Origin: an uncultured bacterium
GTDB taxonomy: Bacteria > Cyanobacteriota > Vampirovibrionia > Gastranaerophilales > Gastranaerophilaceae
NCBI GenBank assembly: GCA_902791985.1
Contig: CADAYD010000001.1
Coordinates: 1 to 64,000 of the forward strand
Length of the DNA: 64,000 nt
Direction: 5' to 3'
Below the pieces are notes generated by a model. That model searched no databases. It worked only from the letters and a program-made list of their open reading frames with translations, and was not told where the DNA came from. Below, piece by piece: positions 6,620-37,463 of this stretch. Both the position numbers and the translations under genes were made by a program. Each line of letters begins with the position of its first letter. Position 1 is the first letter of the stretch.

Positions 6620-6829
6620 TTATTGTAAATTATAATCATATATATTTTTTATCTTTATAACTTCATCTTGTATTTTCTCTAGTGCTAAATATATAGGGTT
6701 AAAATCTTCGATTTCTTCTTTATTTTCGATGTAATTTAGTGCTAATGATAAATAATTTTCTATTTCAACAACAGAATCACATATAATGCTATCTTTATCT
6801 GTCTTATTTTCTTCTTCGGAATTTGTCAT
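6620..6829 (-). CDS. Small acidic helical protein, partner of divergent XRE regulator (copy 1)
   Basis: This is a 69-residue acidic protein. The ATG at 6829 is preferred over an upstream ATG because GAGGT lies about nine bases before it. I do not recognise a family. The core (IENYLSLALNYIENKEEIEDF, split here as IENYLSLALN and YIENKEEIEDF) is visibly related to that of the short gene at 12230 (ALNYIDSKEDYDF). Both genes are divergent from a 67-codon helix-turn-helix gene. The fold is predicted to be helical, with no cysteines in the core and no membrane segment. It converges on lysC with only 3 nt between stop codons. It could be a regulator's small partner, an antitoxin-like protein or an accessory protein. 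There is no direct evidence for any of these. Confidence 0.6.
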   Translation of the reverse strand: MTNSEEENKTDKDSIICDSVVEIENYLSLALNYIENKEEIEDFNPIYLALEKIQDEVIKIKNIYDYNLQ

Positions 6830-6860
6830 AAATAGTACCTCACTTGTTAATAAATGTTGC

Positions 6861-6907
6861 GGATACATTCCGCTATAAAGGAATATTATACTATATATCG
6901 GAATATG
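6861..6907. promoter_or_regulatory. Putative operator array between divergent small genes
   Basis: Three direct copies of an octamer with consensus GGAATATK start at 6861 (GGATACAT), 6880 (GGAATATT) and 6900 (GGAATATG). They are spaced 19 and 20 bp apart, about two helical turns. A short perfect inverted repeat GCGGA/TCCGC (6859-6873) overlaps the first copy. The sites lie between the start codons of the small acidic gene and the XRE gene, where a self-regulating repressor would bind. No binding data exist, so this is pattern only. Confidence 0.45.
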
Positions 6908-6942
6908 TCAACTTATACTGAGTAAAAATATAAAATAAACTT

Positions 6943-7146
6943 ATGATTGAGAATAATATTTCTTTATTAATCGGAAAACGACGCACGAACGTTGCTGAGG
7001 TTGCAAGAATTGCAAAATTAAAATATTCTACTGTAAATAATTTATATCTTGATAAAACAAAGGGGATTGAATTTGAAACAATGAATAAACTTTGTTTTGC
7101 GCTTGATTGTACTCCGGGGGACTTATTTACATATATTCCTGATTAA
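6943..7146 (+). CDS. Small XRE-family helix-turn-helix regulator (copy 1)
   Basis: The 67-residue protein is essentially one Cro/CI-type DNA-binding domain: helix 1 (residues 3-13), the NVAEVARIAKLKYSTVNNLYL helix-turn-helix (about 15-36, quoted in outline) and a C-terminal FETMNKLCFALDCTPGDLF segment typical of YozG/HTH_26 single-domain regulators. It is divergent from the small acidic gene. No Shine-Dalgarno sequence is seen before ATG 6943. TATACT at 6913-6918 could be its -10 box. By family it probably autoregulates through the repeats at 6861-6907, which is inference. Confidence 0.8.
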   Translation: MIENNISLLIGKRRTNVAEVARIAKLKYSTVNNLYLDKTKGIEFETMNKLCFALDCTPGDLFTYIPD

Positions 7147-11925: not shown

Positions 11926-12129
11926 TTATCTCTCTTTATACTCAATGTCAAACCCCAGAATGTCCATAATTTTACGGACTTCTTCAAATTTTATGGTTTG
12001 TCTTGACAATTTGTTGGATAAACTTTTAATTGACGATTTTATTCCGTTATCAGTCAAACATTTTGCCAATTCGGTCATTGTCATTGCTTTCTTCGCAAGT
12101 AACATTTTTATGTCTTCTTTTATACCCAT
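11926..12129 (-). CDS. Small helix-turn-helix protein (copy 2 cassette)
   Basis: This 67-residue single-domain protein has a phage-repressor-like helix-turn-helix (MTMTELAKCLTDNG...SIKSLSNKLSR, about residues 16-43). It is followed by a FEEVRKIMDILGFDIEY tail typical of small XRE-like regulators (DUF6471-like by eye). It is not closely similar to the XRE protein at 6943, but it has the same length and the same divergent arrangement with a small acidic gene. It is followed after 3 nt by the SDR gene, so it could be the regulator of an HTH-SDR transcript. Confidence 0.75.
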   Translation of the reverse strand: MGIKEDIKMLLAKKAMTMTELAKCLTDNGIKSSIKSLSNKLSRQTIKFEEVRKIMDILGFDIEYKER

Positions 12130-12183
12130 AATTCTATAATATTATTAAAGCGATATATTGACAATTTTCTATAAATATAATAC

Positions 12184-12209
12184 ATGTTTCTATGTTATAG
12201 TAGAAACAT
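12184..12209. promoter_or_regulatory. Perfect 9-bp-arm palindrome, probable operator
   Basis: ATGTTTCTA and TAGAAACAT form perfect arms around an eight-base spacer, between the HTH gene (start 12129) and the small acidic gene (from 12230). The size suits a dimeric HTH repressor. TTGACA at 12158-12163 and TATAAT at 12176-12181 lie beside it, but only 12 bp apart, so they are not a normal promoter pair. Confidence 0.5.
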
Positions 12210-12229
12210 CTATATAAAAAGGGATTAAT

Positions 12230-12430
12230 ATAAAAGAACAAGAGCTAATAAATAAACTTCATGAAATTTACGATTTAGTAAACATTGAAACCTGTTGGTT
12301 GGAAATTGCCCTCAATTATATTGACAGCAAAGAAGATTACGATTTTAATTTACTGCTTATACTTGATAAACTTGAAGCCGAAAATAAGAAATTATTTAAA
12401 CAAATTGATGAATTACTAATAATCACATAA
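12230..12430 (+). CDS. Small acidic helical protein with no AUG/GUG/UUG start (copy 2)
   Basis: The open frame runs from a stop at 12215 to TAA at 12428-12430 and contains no upstream ATG, GTG or TTG start. AAAAAGGG at 12216-12223 would be a ribosome site for ATA at 12230, giving 66 residues beginning KEQELINKLHEIYDLV after the initiator. The core LEIALNYIDSKEDYDFNLL resembles the small protein at 6620 (ALNYIENKEEIEDFN), and both are divergent from a 67-codon HTH gene. Coding character is supported by that similarity and an intact frame. Either a rare AUA (or AUU at 12224) initiation is used, or the start codon has mutated and this is a fresh pseudogene. Confidence 0.5.
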   Translation: MKEQELINKLHEIYDLVNIETCWLEIALNYIDSKEDYDFNLLLILDKLEAENKKLFKQIDELLIIT

Positions 12431-12605
12431 AACATATTATCGGAACTTATGTTCACTTTTCTGTTCCACAATCAGGCGGAATAACTCGCTAACGCTCAAA
12501 CAAATCCCCTCCCCCTGTTGTCGTGTAACAAACGATGTTTAATTCACTTCGCAAAGCCTGAAAAGCGACGATAGCGGAGCAAAATTGCAATAATTAACTT
12601 GCAAA
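12431..12605. other. Intergenic spacer of unusual composition
   Basis: This spacer between two convergent genes is much richer in G+C than other spacers. It holds several short inverted pieces, including TTGTCGTGTAACAAACGA (12518-12535), which pairs imperfectly with itself, and CAGGC (12471) opposite GCCTG (12557). No coding frame or known RNA was recognised. The style is that of a dispersed intergenic repeat. Confidence 0.35.
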
Positions 12606-12625
12606 CATTCTTTCACAAAAGAATG
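12606..12625 (-). terminator. Hairpin directly after pilC
   Basis: CATTCTTT and AAAGAATG form a perfect 8-bp stem with a four-base loop, 3 nt beyond the pilC stop on the minus strand. Only TTT follows it on that strand, so it is a weak intrinsic terminator or an mRNA-protecting 3' hairpin. Confidence 0.45.
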
Positions 12626-12627
12626 CG

Positions 12628-13851
12628 CTACATCCCCATATATGAAGCGAATAGAGGCAGATACAGTGCAGATGCAAGAATAAGTACGATTGTACCGATT
12701 ACTACAAGCATTATCGGTTCAATCATTTTTGTCATAATATCAATAATATTATCCAGTGCTTTATCAATATATGATACCGCTTGTCCTAACATATCACCCA
12801 AACGCCCTGACTGTTCACCTGTTGCAATCATGAACAAAATCATTTTAGGCATTGTTCTGGTAGCACGCAATGCTGCTGATAAATGCTGACCTTGTTGAAT
12901 TTTTACGGTTGCTTCTTCTACTCTTGTTTCAAGTGTATGGTTTGTCAATGTTAAATTTGCGAGATATAAACATTCCAAAATCGGTACGCCCGCATCGTAT
13001 GCAACTTGCATGACAGAAATAAAGTTTGCAAAATTTGAGTATTGAATGAGCTTTGTTAATACCGGAATTTTTAAAGAATATTCATCAATCTTCCATTTAC
13101 TTGGTTTCCATCTGAAAAGAAAATTTATCCCAAAAATAATGCCGGCAGCAGTCAAAGGTATAAGGTACCAGTTTGCTTTTAAGAATAATCCCATATCCAT
13201 CAAAACTCTTGTAATCCATGGGAGCTGCATGCCCATTTGTTCAAACATGTCTTTAAATACAGGGAATACAAATACCAGCATGACAATGACAATAAATACT
13301 GCCAAACATATGACAAATACCGGATACATCAATGTTCCGATTACTTTTGAACGTATAGCGGCCTGTTTATTTAAGAGTTCTAAAAGTCTTTCCAGTGTTT
13401 TTTCAAGTTCGCCGGCGTCTTCCCCTGTTTTTACAAGACCGATATAAACATGCCCGAATTGTTCTGGGTATTTAGCAATCGTACCCGCAAAAGTTCCTCC
13501 GTTCATAATTTGGCGTCTTAATTCTGCCGCAACTTGTCTCATTTTCAATTTTGCAGCATCATTTTCTATAAACAGCAAAGATTCAATGATAGGAATACCT
13601 GCGGCAGCAAGAATTTGTAATGTTGAGGTGAAATCGATTTGCTCAGCCAAGCCCATTTTTGGAATTTTGGGTACGGATTTTTTATTTTTTTGCTCTTTTT
13701 TAGCAATAACTTCCGCTTCAGTAATTGAAGTCGGAGTAAATCCCATTGCTCGAACTTCGGTTCTTGCTTCTCTAATACTTGCCGCTTCTACTTGACCTTT
13801 TACAATTTCACTTGTGCCGTTTTTGTATGCAGTATAATTATATCTAGTCAT
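12628..13851 (-). CDS. pilC: Type IV pilus inner-membrane platform protein PilC
   Basis: The 407 residues are typical for the GspF/PilC family. A cytoplasmic N-terminal domain starts with YNYTAYKNGTSEIVKGQVEA (outline). Two T2SSF repeats (about 70-190 and 270-395) each contain the LLELLNKQ/ATGEQSGRLGDML-type signature. Three membrane segments lie at about 170-195, 225-245 and 375-400. It forms the platform that couples PilB ATP hydrolysis to pilin insertion. It starts 1 nt after the pilB stop. Its stop codon lies inside a 13-base match to the start of the tRNA-Pro gene. Confidence 0.95.
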   Translation of the reverse strand: MTRYNYTAYKNGTSEIVKGQVEAASIREARTEVRAMGFTPTSITEAEVIAKKEQKNKKSVPKIPKMGLAEQIDFTSTLQILAAAGIPIIESLLFIENDAAKLKMRQVAAELRRQIMNGGTFAGTIAKYPEQFGHVYIGLVKTGEDAGELEKTLERLLELLNKQAAIRSKVIGTLMYPVFVICLAVFIVIVMLVFVFPVFKDMFEQMGMQLPWITRVLMDMGLFLKANWYLIPLTAAGIIFGINFLFRWKPSKWKIDEYSLKIPVLTKLIQYSNFANFISVMQVAYDAGVPILECLYLANLTLTNHTLETRVEEATVKIQQGQHLSAALRATRTMPKMILFMIATGEQSGRLGDMLGQAVSYIDKALDNIIDIMTKMIEPIMLVVIGTIVLILASALYLPLFASYMGM

Positions 13852-13852
13852 A

Positions 13853-15901
13853 CTATTCGCCCGCCAAACCTAATACTCTGACAAATTCTTCAATTGTTGT
13901 ATGACCTTCCAAAATGTGTTTTAAGCAAGAAGCACTCAATGTTTTCATGCCATGGTCTACAGCACATTCTTCAATTTCCAAATCGTGAGCACCTTGAGCA
14001 ATTAATTTTTTGATTTCTTTGGTTATAGACATAATTTCATATATGCCAATACGGCCTCTGTATCCTTGGAAATTACAATGGTTACAGCCAGCATGTTTGT
14101 ATATAGGGGTTTTCATTAATTTTTCTATTTCTTCTTCGTCCAATGTAACCTGCATTGCTTCTTCTCGTGTGCAATAATATTCTTGTTTACAATCATCGCA
14201 AAGTTTTCTAACCAAACGCTGAGCAATAACACCTGATAACGTTGAAGATACCAAATAGTCTTTTGCTCCCATTTCGATTAAACGTGTAACAGTTGCTGCT
14301 GCTGAGTTGGTGTGGACGGTACTTAATACAAGGTGACCTGTCAATGCTGCTGATATAGCAGTTTCTAATGTTTCATAGTCACGAATTTCACCGACTAATA
14401 TAATGTCAGGGTCTTGACGTAAGATTGCTCTCATACAAGACGCGAAAGTAATACCGGCTTTTGAGTTTACCTGAGATTGGTTTATACCTTCAAGCTTAAT
14501 TTCTATAGGGTCTTCGATTGTTGTGATGTTAACGGATTCATCATTTAAACTCTTTAAAATTGAGTACAAAGTTGTTGTTTTACCGGAACCAGTAGGACCG
14601 GAGGTTAGGATAACTCCGTTCGGACATGAAATCATTTTTGTAATTTCATCCAAATCTTGACTTGATGCCCCGACAAGTTTTATTTGTTTATCTTCTGATT
14701 TCAAACTGACTGCAGGTGCCAAAATACGAATTACGACCTTTTCTTTGCCCGAAACAGGTAAAGTATTTATACGAAAATCGTAATTACAATCTTTGTACGG
14801 CAGGCTGAACGTTCCGTCTTGAGGACGTCTTTGTTCTGCAATGTTCATTCTTGATAATACTTTAAAACGTGTTATAACTGAAGATTCCGCTTTATCAGGA
14901 ATATCAAGTGCTTTTTGAAGGATACCGTCTTTTCTGTATCTGACTATATATCCGTTCAATCTCGGTTCGATGTGAATATCGGAAACCTTGTTATCAATAG
15001 CATTTGTAAGAATTTGGTTAACAAATTTTGCAACTGTACCGGTTGAATCAAGAAGCTCTGCATCTAATTGATCCGAAAGGCTTGCTTCTGCTTCTGATTC
15101 ACTCGTTTCATTTTTAATTTGTTCCAAAATTCTTTCAGTTTGTTTTTTACGTTTTGAGAAAAATACTTCAAGTGAATTTTGAAATTCATAATGGGTCATT
15201 AAAAGCTGACGAGGATTTTGTCCCGTTATATAAATAATAGCTTTTAAAATATCCGGTTTTAAGGGTTTTGTAACCCCGACAGTGAGAGTTCTTCCATCTG
15301 ATGAAATCGGGATTACGGTATTGGTACGGATAAAATCTTCCGGCAATATATTGATAAATTTCTTTTGTTCATGAAGTTGTTCTGTTGTAACAAGTTTATA
15401 ACCGGTCTGTTCTCCTAATGCAGCTTTCAAATCTGTTAGGGTAATTAATCCCATTTCGTATAGAGTTGAACCGATTGGAGCATTAGAACGCTTTGCTTCT
15501 GCAAGTGCATCTTCGAGCTGTTCTGTTGTTATTAATCCTTTTTTTACGAGTAATTCCCCTAGCATTCCTCCTACCGGTTCTGCTACCATAACCGGAGCAT
15601 CTTTTTTCTGCTCAACTTTCGGGAAATCTTCTTCTATCTTTTTATCATCAATAAAACCGCTCAAAAGTTCCTGAAGGTCATCATCTCCTCCTACAGGCAT
15701 AAATCTGATTGGGTTAGCAAAGTATTTTTTTATTTGTTGACTTATTAAATCCATGTTGGATTTGCGAGATATCGCTACGAACAATTGACCTTGACGTATG
15801 CTAATAGGGACAAATTTCATTTTGCCCATCAGGCTTTTGTCCATTTTCTCCATTACACTTGGATCTATACTATTTTTTATTCTTGTTATAACTTCGTTCA
15901 T
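13853..15901 (-). CDS. pilB: Type IV pilus extension ATPase PilB
   Basis: The 682 residues are in the range for PilB/GspE. An N-terminal MshEN (T2SSE_N) region carries LLVKKGLITTEQLEDALAEA. The ATPase core has Walker A GPTGSGKTTT, an Asp box TIEDPIE, a Walker B with DPDIILVGEIRD, and a His box STVHTNSAAATVTR. The zinc-binding tetracysteine CDDC...CNHC is at about 585-625. All catalytic residues are intact. It powers pilus extension in the cytoplasm, docking on PilC. Order is pilP-like, pilQ, pilB, pilC with short gaps (18 and 1 nt), so this is one operon. A degenerate paralogue lies at 58961. Confidence 0.95.
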   Translation of the reverse strand: MNEVITRIKNSIDPSVMEKMDKSLMGKMKFVPISIRQGQLFVAISRKSNMDLISQQIKKYFANPIRFMPVGGDDDLQELLSGFIDDKKIEEDFPKVEQKKDAPVMVAEPVGGMLGELLVKKGLITTEQLEDALAEAKRSNAPIGSTLYEMGLITLTDLKAALGEQTGYKLVTTEQLHEQKKFINILPEDFIRTNTVIPISSDGRTLTVGVTKPLKPDILKAIIYITGQNPRQLLMTHYEFQNSLEVFFSKRKKQTERILEQIKNETSESEAEASLSDQLDAELLDSTGTVAKFVNQILTNAIDNKVSDIHIEPRLNGYIVRYRKDGILQKALDIPDKAESSVITRFKVLSRMNIAEQRRPQDGTFSLPYKDCNYDFRINTLPVSGKEKVVIRILAPAVSLKSEDKQIKLVGASSQDLDEITKMISCPNGVILTSGPTGSGKTTTLYSILKSLNDESVNITTIEDPIEIKLEGINQSQVNSKAGITFASCMRAILRQDPDIILVGEIRDYETLETAISAALTGHLVLSTVHTNSAAATVTRLIEMGAKDYLVSSTLSGVIAQRLVRKLCDDCKQEYYCTREEAMQVTLDEEEIEKLMKTPIYKHAGCNHCNFQGYRGRIGIYEIMSITKEIKKLIAQGAHDLEIEECAVDHGMKTLSASCLKHILEGHTTIEEFVRVLGLAGE

Positions 15902-15919
15902 TTTGTATTTTTATTTTTA

Positions 15920-17770
15920 TTATAAATCTAAATTTGTAGTTTCAACAGCATCCTCAGTATCAATAAGTATCTGAGGAGTTATCATGATAACCAGTTCTCT
16001 TTTATCTCGTTTATTTGTTGTACTCCTGAAAATAACCCCAATAAAAGGTAAATCTCCAAGAAAAGGAATCTTATTAACAGTTTTTTGTTCTTCTTCTTGT
16101 ATCATACCTCCGATGATTAGAGTTTCTCCATCTTTTATTCTCACGCCCTTTAAATCGAGATTACGTCTTTGTAATAAAGTCGCTGCAATATCTTCACCGC
16201 CTAAAGGGTTTGGGGTTGTTAAAGGTGGTCCTGAAGGAGTACTATATTCAGGTTTTATATCTAACGTTACATACCCGTCAGGACTGATAAACGGAGTTAC
16301 GGAAACTTTTATACCGTTATCGCTTTGGATATCATAATCTCTTTGGACCTGAGATGAACCGGAACCGGTTGAATCCAAATATTGTGTTGTAACTTTTGCT
16401 ACATAGTCAGAAGTTAAATCAATTACGGATTCCTGACCATTTGTAACTAATATTCGCGGATTTGCTAAAGATCTTGCTTTACTATTTTGTATTAAGTAGT
16501 ATATTGTCCAAGTAAGCTGAGGAGAGGTTGACCATTTCTCAACTGTCGCTTCTTGAGCCGGAGCAACATCCGAATATCCATGACCTGTAAGAAATATAGG
16601 GTATGGGTTAGTTGTTATACCACCATTGGAATTTATACTTATATTGTGTCCTCTATATTGCCATGTGTTATTAAATTGTTTAGAACCTGATTCTGTCAGT
16701 TCTATAAGTTGAACCTCAAGATATGCTTGAGGAGATTTAATATCATTCGCGGCAATATAATCTCTAATCATTTCGATTTGAGTAGGAGAACCGCCAATAA
16801 CCTGAATCATACCTATTGTAGGGAAATATGAAACCGTCATATTTTTAAACGGTAATGATGACATTTCTTCTGCTTCTGCTTGTTGATCAACAGAGCATAA
16901 CAGCTGACCTCCGCCAATAGATAAACCTTCTCCGCCTGAGCTGCTCATACTGTCTGAAGCAAAACCTGTCGGTACTCCTGCAGCACCTCCGGTAGGAATT
17001 CCTGCTGCTCCTCCTGCTGCTCCTCCTTTTGATGCTTCTCCGTTACTCATAAACGAGGGAATAAGTGTTGAACAAATCAAACCTGCCATTTCTGCCGGTG
17101 TAACGTGATTGACTTTAAAATTCGTAATCGCAGGTTTTTTATCAAATTGATCTATAATCTTCTGAGCTAACAAGGCATCTTCATGTGTACCCATAATGAT
17201 TAATTCATTATTTGCCGGATTAACCGTTACAACAGGTTTAGATGATGCTCCCGGACTTATGCTGTTTTTATTGAATATACTTTTATTTAAATAATCGGCA
17301 ATTGATGCGGCACTGACATATTTTACCGGAATCAGGATAATATCCTTTGAACCGGTTGCAACATCAAGGGAATCATCGCCTGCAGTGGTAATAATGAGCG
17401 TGTTGCCTTGAATAATATATTTTAGTTTACTTGTTGAGATAACAAGACTAAGTGCTCTTTGCAGCGTTACATTAACCAGGTCCATTGTAACTTTGCCAGA
17501 TATATCCTGCCCGAATATGATATTCATTCCGGCTTGATCTGCAAACATCCTCAGTACTTGCATTACATCTGCATCTCTCAAACTCAAATTTACAGGAGAG
17601 TTTCCATTTTGTATTCTGGTCTCAGAATTTATGTCTATAGATGTTATTGGCTGCTGAGAACGAATAAAAGGTGTATCATCCTGAGCACATGCTAAGGGTG
17701 ATGTTCCCATAACAGTGAATGATAATATCATTAGGCTCGCTATAAATTTTTCTCTCATTTTATTTTTCAT
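15920..17770 (-). CDS. pilQ: Type IV pilus secretin PilQ
   Basis: The protein has 616 residues. A signal peptide (about 1-29, MREKFIASLMILSFTVMG... then ACA) is followed by an STN domain (VNLSLRDADVMQVLRMFADQ), NolW-type repeats, a Gly/Ala/Ser-rich linker (about 245-290) and the secretin channel. The channel has VRIKDGETLIIGGMIQ and the KIPFLGDLPFIGVIF signature. It forms the outer-membrane pore for the pilus. No AMIN domain was noticed, so it is shorter than many PilQ proteins. The linker has repeated GGAAGIPTGGAAGVPTG units. Confidence 0.93.
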   Translation of the reverse strand: MKNKMREKFIASLMILSFTVMGTSPLACAQDDTPFIRSQQPITSIDINSETRIQNGNSPVNLSLRDADVMQVLRMFADQAGMNIIFGQDISGKVTMDLVNVTLQRALSLVISTSKLKYIIQGNTLIITTAGDDSLDVATGSKDIILIPVKYVSAASIADYLNKSIFNKNSISPGASSKPVVTVNPANNELIIMGTHEDALLAQKIIDQFDKKPAITNFKVNHVTPAEMAGLICSTLIPSFMSNGEASKGGAAGGAAGIPTGGAAGVPTGFASDSMSSSGGEGLSIGGGQLLCSVDQQAEAEEMSSLPFKNMTVSYFPTIGMIQVIGGSPTQIEMIRDYIAANDIKSPQAYLEVQLIELTESGSKQFNNTWQYRGHNISINSNGGITTNPYPIFLTGHGYSDVAPAQEATVEKWSTSPQLTWTIYYLIQNSKARSLANPRILVTNGQESVIDLTSDYVAKVTTQYLDSTGSGSSQVQRDYDIQSDNGIKVSVTPFISPDGYVTLDIKPEYSTPSGPPLTTPNPLGGEDIAATLLQRRNLDLKGVRIKDGETLIIGGMIQEEEQKTVNKIPFLGDLPFIGVIFRSTTNKRDKRELVIMITPQILIDTEDAVETTNLDL

Positions 17771-36152: not shown

Positions 36153-37463
36153 TTATATAACTTCTTGCGGAGCCTTAATTTTTTGAGCTTCAACTCTTTC
36201 TTTTATTGCTCCCATTGGCTCGTAGTATGGCTCGACTGTCATTACTTTTGCCGCTATATCGGGATAATAATAAATAAATTTCAATTCGCTTTTTGTCAAA
36301 GGCTTCTGGGTATGAACGTTTGCATAACGCACAAGTTCAAGGATATTCCTTGCTTCGTGTTCGTCTTTGAATTCAAGTTCAAGATTGTTATAAACGTTTC
36401 TGAATCCTTTAATCCCGCCGTATTCGCCGGTTGTAATCATTCTTCCCGTTTCAATGATTTCCGGTTCTCCTCTGCCGAGTTCTTCAAAGTCGTACAATTC
36501 ATAGTTCCTGCGGTCTTTAAGCGCTCCGTCAGCATGAATCCCTGATTCGTGTGCAAATGCGTTGTCCCCTACTGCCGGTTGATTCATAGGAATCGGAACC
36601 CCAAATGCGTATGCGGTATATTTCGCAATTTGCCAAGCTTTGTCGAGTCTGATATTTTCATCAATTTTGTACTTCCCCCTAAAACCTGCAGATTTTAGAC
36701 AGCCTAAAAGACAAGATACCAAATCTGCATTTCCTGCTCGCTCGCCCATTCCGTTTATTGCAGTGTTTATATAAGCATCTACTCCTGCATCTATTGCTGC
36801 TTTAGCCCCAATAATCGAACACGCTGCAGCCATTCCTAAATCATTATGAAAATGCAATTCTATAGGCATTTGTAATTCTTTTGCGAGAGTATAAATCCTA
36901 TCATAAGTTGTTAATGGATCTTCTCCTCCGAGTGTATCGCAGTATCTGAAACGGTGTGCACCGGACTTTTTCGCTTCTTTACCGTACTTAATTAAGAAAT
37001 TAATATCGCTTCTTGAAGCATCTTCTGCGTTGACGCCGATAATTCTTGCCCCTTTATCTACTGCACATTCAACTGCATCTTTAGTCATTTTTATTATGTC
37101 GTCAGGTGTTTTCTTGCCTCCGTATTTTCCGTTTATCATTTGTTCTGAAGTAGATTGAGAAAGGTTTACATATTGTAGTTCCGGAACATTTTTAAACGAT
37201 AGCTCAACATCTTCAGCTATTCCTCGCATCCAACCCGACAATTTTGTCGTTGTAATTACGCCGCGTTTGACAAGTTCTAAATTCCCGTTGAGGTAATTAA
37301 TTTCGTGCTTTGTAGTGGGAAACCCAAATTCCGATTGGGTTATACCCATAGAATTAAGCATAAGATTTATAATAGTTTTTTGAAGCTTAGCTAAGCCTAA
37401 GCGTGAAGTTTGTACCCCATCGCGGTTTGTTACATCTACAAAATATATTCTATTTTCACTCAT
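36153..37463 (-). CDS. Homocitrate-synthase-family enzyme, possibly Re-citrate synthase
   Basis: This is a 436-residue HMGL-like/DRE-TIM barrel enzyme. The N-terminal DVTNRDGVQTSRLGL carries the metal-binding RDGVQ. VNAEDASRSD, HFHNDLGMA and NTAINGMGERAGNADL are the usual metal and acetyl-CoA motifs. A C-terminal HESGIHADG segment follows. It belongs to the homocitrate/isopropylmalate synthase superfamily. To my memory the EFGFPTTKHE and TTGEYGGIKGF style matches the anaerobe branch that includes Re-citrate synthase. Nothing nearby makes homocitrate for nitrogenase. The 2-oxo acid substrate (oxaloacetate versus 2-oxoglutarate) is not decided. The AAGGA site and a terminator define a single gene. 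Confidence 0.75.
   Translation of the reverse strand: MSENRIYFVDVTNRDGVQTSRLGLAKLQKTIINLMLNSMGITQSEFGFPTTKHEINYLNGNLELVKRGVITTTKLSGWMRGIAEDVELSFKNVPELQYVNLSQSTSEQMINGKYGGKKTPDDIIKMTKDAVECAVDKGARIIGVNAEDASRSDINFLIKYGKEAKKSGAHRFRYCDTLGGEDPLTTYDRIYTLAKELQMPIELHFHNDLGMAAACSIIGAKAAIDAGVDAYINTAINGMGERAGNADLVSCLLGCLKSAGFRGKYKIDENIRLDKAWQIAKYTAYAFGVPIPMNQPAVGDNAFAHESGIHADGALKDRRNYELYDFEELGRGEPEIIETGRMITTGEYGGIKGFRNVYNNLELEFKDEHEARNILELVRYANVHTQKPLTKSELKFIYYYPDIAAKVMTVEPYYEPMGAIKERVEAQKIKAPQEVI

Follow-up and report, generated by a model that had tools for sequence, protein, structure and literature searches.

The question raised by this locus is what two small divergent gene pairs do in the chromosome of an uncultured member of the Gastranaerophilaceae. 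The window, i.e., the whole 64,000-nucleotide stretch of DNA that was analysed, has a G+C content of ~33% and belongs to a 1.9-Mb genome assembled into 34 contigs; the MAGs that hold close relatives of its helix-turn-helix (HTH) gene are named Candidatus Gastranaerophilales or uncultured bacteria, and many come from the ruminant gut. In cassette A (6620-7146), an HTH_26 regulator gene (6943..7146, + strand, 67 aa) is divergent from the gene of a 69-aa acidic protein (6620..6829, - strand), the start of which was set at 6829 and not at 6868, as in the ORF list, because the ribosome-binding site and the homologues favour 6829. In cassette B (11926-12430), a DUF6471-type HTH regulator gene (11926..12129, - strand, 67 aa) is divergent from a related acidic frame (12230..12430, + strand, 66 aa) that has ATA at the start codon position. 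Such a pair had been described twice in the window by the initial annotation, and both cassettes are indeed found where it put them.

The two HTH proteins had been held to differ in sequence, and they belong to separate Pfam families. HTH A matches HTH_26 (PF13443; E 2e-17, 63.6 bits vs a curated cut-off of 22, positions 1-63 of 63), while HTH B matches DUF6471 (PF20075; E 3e-7, 30.7 bits vs a curated cut-off of 26.8), a family of which no mention was found in the literature searched, as none was found there of Gastranaerophilales together with helix-turn-helix. The predicted structure of HTH A (AF2, pLDDT 94) matches that of CylR2 (Foldseek E 3e-5, TM 0.84 over 66 residues; profile E 1.5e-6), and further fold matches are the DNA-binding domains of the SaPI2 Stl repressor and of SinR.

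The acidic proteins, whose likeness had been noticed by eye, are homologous according to their alignments: their Smith-Waterman score is 69 against 32.7 +/- 6.5 for shuffled sequences (0/5000 shuffles as high), and the families built around A and B align profile-profile with an E of 5e-6 and a probability of 86%. The claim that the pair had no known family stands for these proteins, which matched no family in Pfam, PHROGs, NCBIfam or PADLOC, but not for the HTH proteins. Structure prediction gives the cassette A acidic protein as an alpha-helical hairpin (helices 2-36 and 44-63, pLDDT 87), for which no match at E <= 0.001 was obtained against the PDB by sequence or against the PDB and BFVD with Foldseek. 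A second small acidic family (MDI..EIxxLSKxL) also partners DUF6471-type HTHs; nothing in Pfam, NCBIfam, PHROGs or PADLOC matched it, and relatedness to the A/B family was undetectable on comparison.

The intergenic region of cassette A holds predicted promoters and putative operators. The acidic gene has a promoter TTGACA-17-TAATAT scoring 10/12, with the -35 box at 6906..6911 and the -10 box at 6883..6888, both on the - strand. Two copies of a 20-nt tandem repeat make up its putative operators: O1 (TATTCCGATATATAGTATAA; 6886..6905, - strand) lies between the -35 and -10 boxes, and O2 (TATTCCTTTATAGCGGAATG; 6866..6885, - strand) is a near-perfect dyad over the -10 region and the transcription start. 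The HTH gene has a weak -35 and a -10 box TAAAAT (6931..6936, + strand) whose last T is at -7 from the ATG, so that its transcript is predicted to be leaderless. Cassette B has TTGTCA-17-TATTAT as its HTH promoter (12136..12164, - strand), which ends 7 nt from the ATG and likewise predicts a leaderless transcript; the -35 box of this promoter overlaps the oppositely directed TTGACA of the acidic gene (12158-12163). The acidic-gene promoter has a weak -10, and the candidate operator is an inverted repeat, ATACATGTTTCTA/TAGAAACATCTAT (12180..12213), with 13-nt arms that are 92% complementary.

Among 57 nonredundant HTH_26 cassettes, TAnnnT ends 7/8 nt before the HTH start in 55, and a Shine-Dalgarno-like motif is present at 2% of HTH starts vs 93% of partner starts, the values for control ORFs, in which the start was guessed as the first ATG, being 18% and 50%, respectively. 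Because the HTH start has no ribosome-binding site and a -10 box stands ~7 nt upstream, the HTH mRNA is probably leaderless, a signature known for lambda cI transcribed from PRM. The start signature of the DUF6471 type is weaker (TAnnnT in 25/45; Shine-Dalgarno-like motif in 29%). The partner promoter is visible as TTGA[CT]A 31-32 nt from the HTH start in 30/57 HTH_26 cassettes, and the 20 nt that follow this -35 repeat 20 nt further on (identity 0.555 vs ~0.33 at other shifts), which points to two tandem operators reaching from the -35 to just beyond the transcription start. The dyad symmetry of the operators is a modest signal (0.749 vs 0.705 +/- 0.015), the 20-nt tandem repeat being the stronger one.

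In a search of 146 Gastranaerophilaceae genomes, homologues of the acidic proteins were found next to HTH genes; as the alignment of the two window proteins also outscores shuffled controls, none of the refuting outcomes named by the initial annotation came about. The HTH_26-type profile matches 120/288 genomes and the DUF6471-type profile 218/288, with up to 20 copies per genome; the DUF6471-type HTH thus represents a strong lineage-specific expansion in the Gastranaerophilaceae. Across the phylum, the HTH_26 subfamily hardly occurs outside this family: it matches 84/386 genomes, all but five of them Gastranaerophilaceae. Among 174 distinct HTH copies (87 HTH_26 and 87 DUF6471-type), the start-to-start gap is 110-114 bp in 43 of the 67 partnered HTH_26 cassettes (median 113), and its median is 112.5, with a wider spread, for the DUF6471 type. 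Under fixed criteria (opposite strand, gap of 100-125 bp, ribosome-binding site, 55-90 aa, net acidic), a small acidic partner was found for 34/87 HTH_26 and 15/87 DUF6471-type copies and for 0/586 control long ORFs. The proposal that the pair is a recurring regulatory module equipped with operators of its own gains strong support from the conserved spacing, the promoters, the tandem operators, the recurrence in the family and the zero count among 586 control starts.

No other kind of partner comes near the small acidic proteins in frequency, and about a quarter of the HTH copies have no partner by the criteria used. Prepilin-like genes occupy the partner position of 11 HTH_26 and 21 DUF6471-type copies, and further divergent partners found there are a 150-aa protein and a secreted protein. 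The prepilin-like partners (FTLAEVLITLGIIGVVAA) stand at the same spacing in L105, L110-L112, L114, L119, L120, L150, L265-L278 and other loci; since regulators of both types are often divergent from such genes at this spacing, the lineage may possess many pilin-like proteins of one large family, each under a regulator of its own. A separate family of 150-160-aa partners (MLVELNSEQMKSLL...) is likewise found at the same spacing from HTH_26 genes (L146, L147, L255, L086). In the window's own genome, a DUF6471-type HTH gene is divergent from another small HTH gene in a cI/cro-like layout (L347, 1483-1995 of contig C23).

Sister genomes have empty sites at both positions, and by this comparison the two cassettes are insertions. 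In genome G277, lysC and the gene of a CxxCxxCC protein are 26 bp apart, where the window has ~0.6 kb holding cassette A; in G074, G291 and G302, gspF and an SDR gene are separated by a few bases, where the window has cassette B. Neither target-site duplications nor terminal repeats were seen at the two insertions. Among the genes of the run that cassette B interrupts (12628-17770) are secretin genes and genes of the gspF/gspE type, as in a type IV pilus or type II secretion system. The stretch that follows cassette B (12425-12640) is non-coding and made of dispersed repeats: the initial 41 nt are found again at several other places of the genome at 86-95%, a second part of 34 nt turns up some five times, and contig C10 carries a 127-nt copy at position 36760.

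Cassette B also bears marks of decay and exchange. Its acidic frame is intact and preceded by a ribosome-binding site, and it offers no in-register ATG, GTG or TTG at the start, where ATA is found at 12230; the frame has probably lost its start or is poorly translated. In the sister genome G100, the counterpart has ATG at this position and a stop after 13 codons, and the acidic gene is, as read from this frame, dispensable there. The HTH proteins of the window and of G100 are identical at 66/67 residues (dN 0.006, dS 0.37), while the genes next to the cassette differ with a dS of 1.4-1.75. The low dS suggests that cassette B may have been transferred or gene-converted between lineages.

In several orthologous cassettes, a block of ~200 bp that spans the operators and the part of the HTH gene encoding the recognition half has been swapped, while the partner and the dimerisation half of the HTH protein were retained. 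In the case of L131 and L136, the orthologous 8-kb loci are ~95% identical, the partner proteins are 94% identical and the HTH residues from ~31 on are identical, but identity falls to 66% between positions -95 and +95 relative to the start of the HTH gene. The same pattern is found in L066/L072, in L161/L167 and in L081/L163, the last aligning over 3.2 kb at 88% with a partner identity of 98% and a block identity of 52%; L070/L157 and L076/L169 show a similar exchange with less clean flanks. In the control pairs L081/L084 and L161/L162, the block is retained at 93-94%. On the predicted structure, the exchanged part of the HTH protein corresponds to beta1 plus helices alpha1-alpha3, the recognition helix (28-35) among them, and alpha4-alpha5 are kept. 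Assembly chimerism was considered as a cause and is unlikely, the pattern being seen in MAGs of different studies and with flanks that are themselves no long exact repeats.

Covariation among 36 cassettes follows the same division, with permutation tests that ignore relatedness: operator similarity goes with the HTH N-half, for which the partial r is 0.71 (p 0.0005), but does not go with the C-half, for which it is 0.05 (n.s.). For partner similarity, the larger value is that of the C-half (0.43, vs 0.21 for the N-half), and partner type tracks the C-half once the N-half is accounted for (r 0.44, p 0.001), in permutation tests that again ignore relatedness, although this link can come from block exchange alone, because the partner and the C-half are the two flanks of the block. 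The prepilin-type HTHs form one clade. Pairs of cassettes within one genome were also compared for heteroimmunity; they number only 8, none exceeds an N-half similarity of 0.8, and the chance expectation is <1.

Several known systems share part of this organization. SinR and SinI of Bacillus are an HTH repressor and a small antagonist that binds the repressor's dimerisation part; SinR has an extra C-terminal domain and the sin genes are not divergent, unlike the cassettes, and no sequence relation was found between SinI and the acidic proteins. CylR2, the Enterococcus faecalis cytolysin regulator, is the closest solved fold and, like HTH A, a single-domain HTH protein (66 aa); it is a dimer that represses a divergent operon via overlapping opposed promoters (PMC3709268). 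HTH A fits a CylR2-like minimal repressor by size and fold, and is predicted to bind the dyad operator as a dimer. CylR2 differs in that it works with a membrane protein, CylR1, controls a toxin operon and has no acidic hairpin partner. In the TF-smORF modules of phages, an HTH-type regulator, in some cases of the XRE type, is divergent from a homologue-poor small protein, at a distance of ~150 nt in one case (PMC10432266). The cassettes share this divergent arrangement of regulator and small protein; however, the phage regulator activates the smORF, whereas the putative operators of the cassettes overlap the -35 and -10 boxes of the small gene, which fits repression. The phage modules are located in phages, where they act on cI; the cassettes have housekeeping neighbours with no phage near. 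The CI/MOR switch of phage TP901-1 comprises, in <1 kb, two divergent promoters, two interacting proteins and operators between them (PMC7250872). The cassettes likewise have divergent promoters with operators between; MOR has its own putative DNA-binding motif, while none is recognised in the acidic hairpin. The XRE-DUF397 pairs of Streptomyces, formerly taken for toxin-antitoxin (TA) systems, are lineage-expanded pairs of an HTH and a small protein (PMC10364602), but there the small gene lies downstream of the HTH gene, and the acidic proteins had no DUF397 match in Pfam. The cassettes differ from all of these in combining a chromosomal location, near restriction to one family, insertion, a specificity block that can be exchanged and an acidic hairpin for which no relatives are known.

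The architecture of the cassettes, their promoters, operators, recurrence, insertion, block exchange and covariation are all established at the level of sequence, and this anatomy strongly suggests that the HTH protein would repress the acidic-gene promoter; we further infer that the acidic partner binds the HTH protein and acts on the repressor. We give an even chance to a model in which each cassette is a CylR2-like repressor switch modulated by its acidic partner. The HTH protein, made from a probably leaderless mRNA, would act as a minimal CylR2-like dimeric repressor and, bound to the two tandem 20-bp operators over the strong divergent promoter, would keep the acidic gene off. Where repression fails, the acidic helical-hairpin protein would be produced and, most likely, act back on its own repressor via the dimerisation half (alpha4-alpha5), making the switch self-reinforcing in the manner of SinI or of TP901-1 MOR. 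Swapping the operators and the recognition half as one block would then confer a new DNA specificity on a cassette whose partner and dimerisation half stay the same.

Points against this model are the weak -35 of the HTH promoter in cassette A, the weak -10 of the acidic-gene promoter in cassette B, and the acidic gene of cassette B itself, which looks start-lost in the window and, being truncated in G100, is dispensable there. Against a modulating partner also stands the fact that some HTHs of the same families control non-homologous genes, for prepilins or the 150-aa protein, with no acidic partner. This observation belongs to the main rival, in which the acidic protein is the output, or cargo, of a portable repressor-promoter unit, made up of the HTH gene and its promoter, that drives acidic, prepilin-like and secreted proteins alike from the same spacing. 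It would also accommodate the faster evolution of the acidic partners (dN ~0.5-0.6 vs 0.07-0.1 for the HTH) and the service of two unrelated small acidic families as partners, yet a pure cargo has no need for partner similarity and type to track the HTH C-half, and the predominance of small acidic proteins among the partners likewise counts against it; we consider it possible, if rather doubtful. It is unlikely that the cassettes are TA-like addiction modules, in which the acidic protein would inhibit growth, the HTH C-half neutralise it and the N-half repress. A near-invariant HTH (dN 0.006) beside a partner inactivated in G100 and without its start codon in the window is what one would expect if the toxin must go first, and the patchy insertion at differing sites and the modularity (N-half with operator, C-half with partner) agree with this. 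On the other hand, in the cassettes examined the genes are divergent and not co-operonic, the acidic hairpins match no toxin family in Pfam, NCBIfam, PADLOC or among PDB toxins, and the analogous Streptomyces XRE-DUF397 pairs, once proposed as TA systems, turned out to be regulators (PMC10364602). In the literature searched, the two papers that bring up Gastranaerophilales as well as toxin-antitoxin concern other matters, to judge by title and abstract.

Very improbable is a role as a remnant of mobile elements or as a tool against them, with the small protein serving as an anti-repressor against a prophage repressor, as in the phage TF-smORF modules (PMC10432266). The layout is the same, the HTH protein resembles the SaPI2 Stl repressor in fold and the block exchange recalls phage immunity switching, but the viral contigs searched with both HTH profiles contained no relatives, and the neighbours of the cassettes are housekeeping genes, with none of phage type in the vicinity. 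The suggestion of a defence-like role is unsupported: there is no PADLOC match, the viral contigs searched lack relatives and housekeeping genes flank the cassettes.

If the repressor switch with a modulating acidic partner is taken further, the cassettes could be chromosomal, non-phage, insertable repressor units with a phage-like 'heteroimmune' switching, in which operators and recognition half are replaced as a block, the acidic antagonist and the dimerisation half that it binds are kept, and each cassette gains a private, orthogonal switch; we advance this proposal only tentatively. Were it true, the family would offer a ready-made collection of minimal repressor-operator pairs that have changed DNA specificity time and again against a constant background, which would be useful to read the HTH-operator code and to build orthogonal switches. 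Immunity-type specificity switching, known from phages, would also operate in cassettes resident in the chromosome of gut bacteria from an uncultured lineage, and these cassettes would provide a first handle on gene regulation in the Gastranaerophilales, including that of the prepilin-like genes placed under the same regulators.
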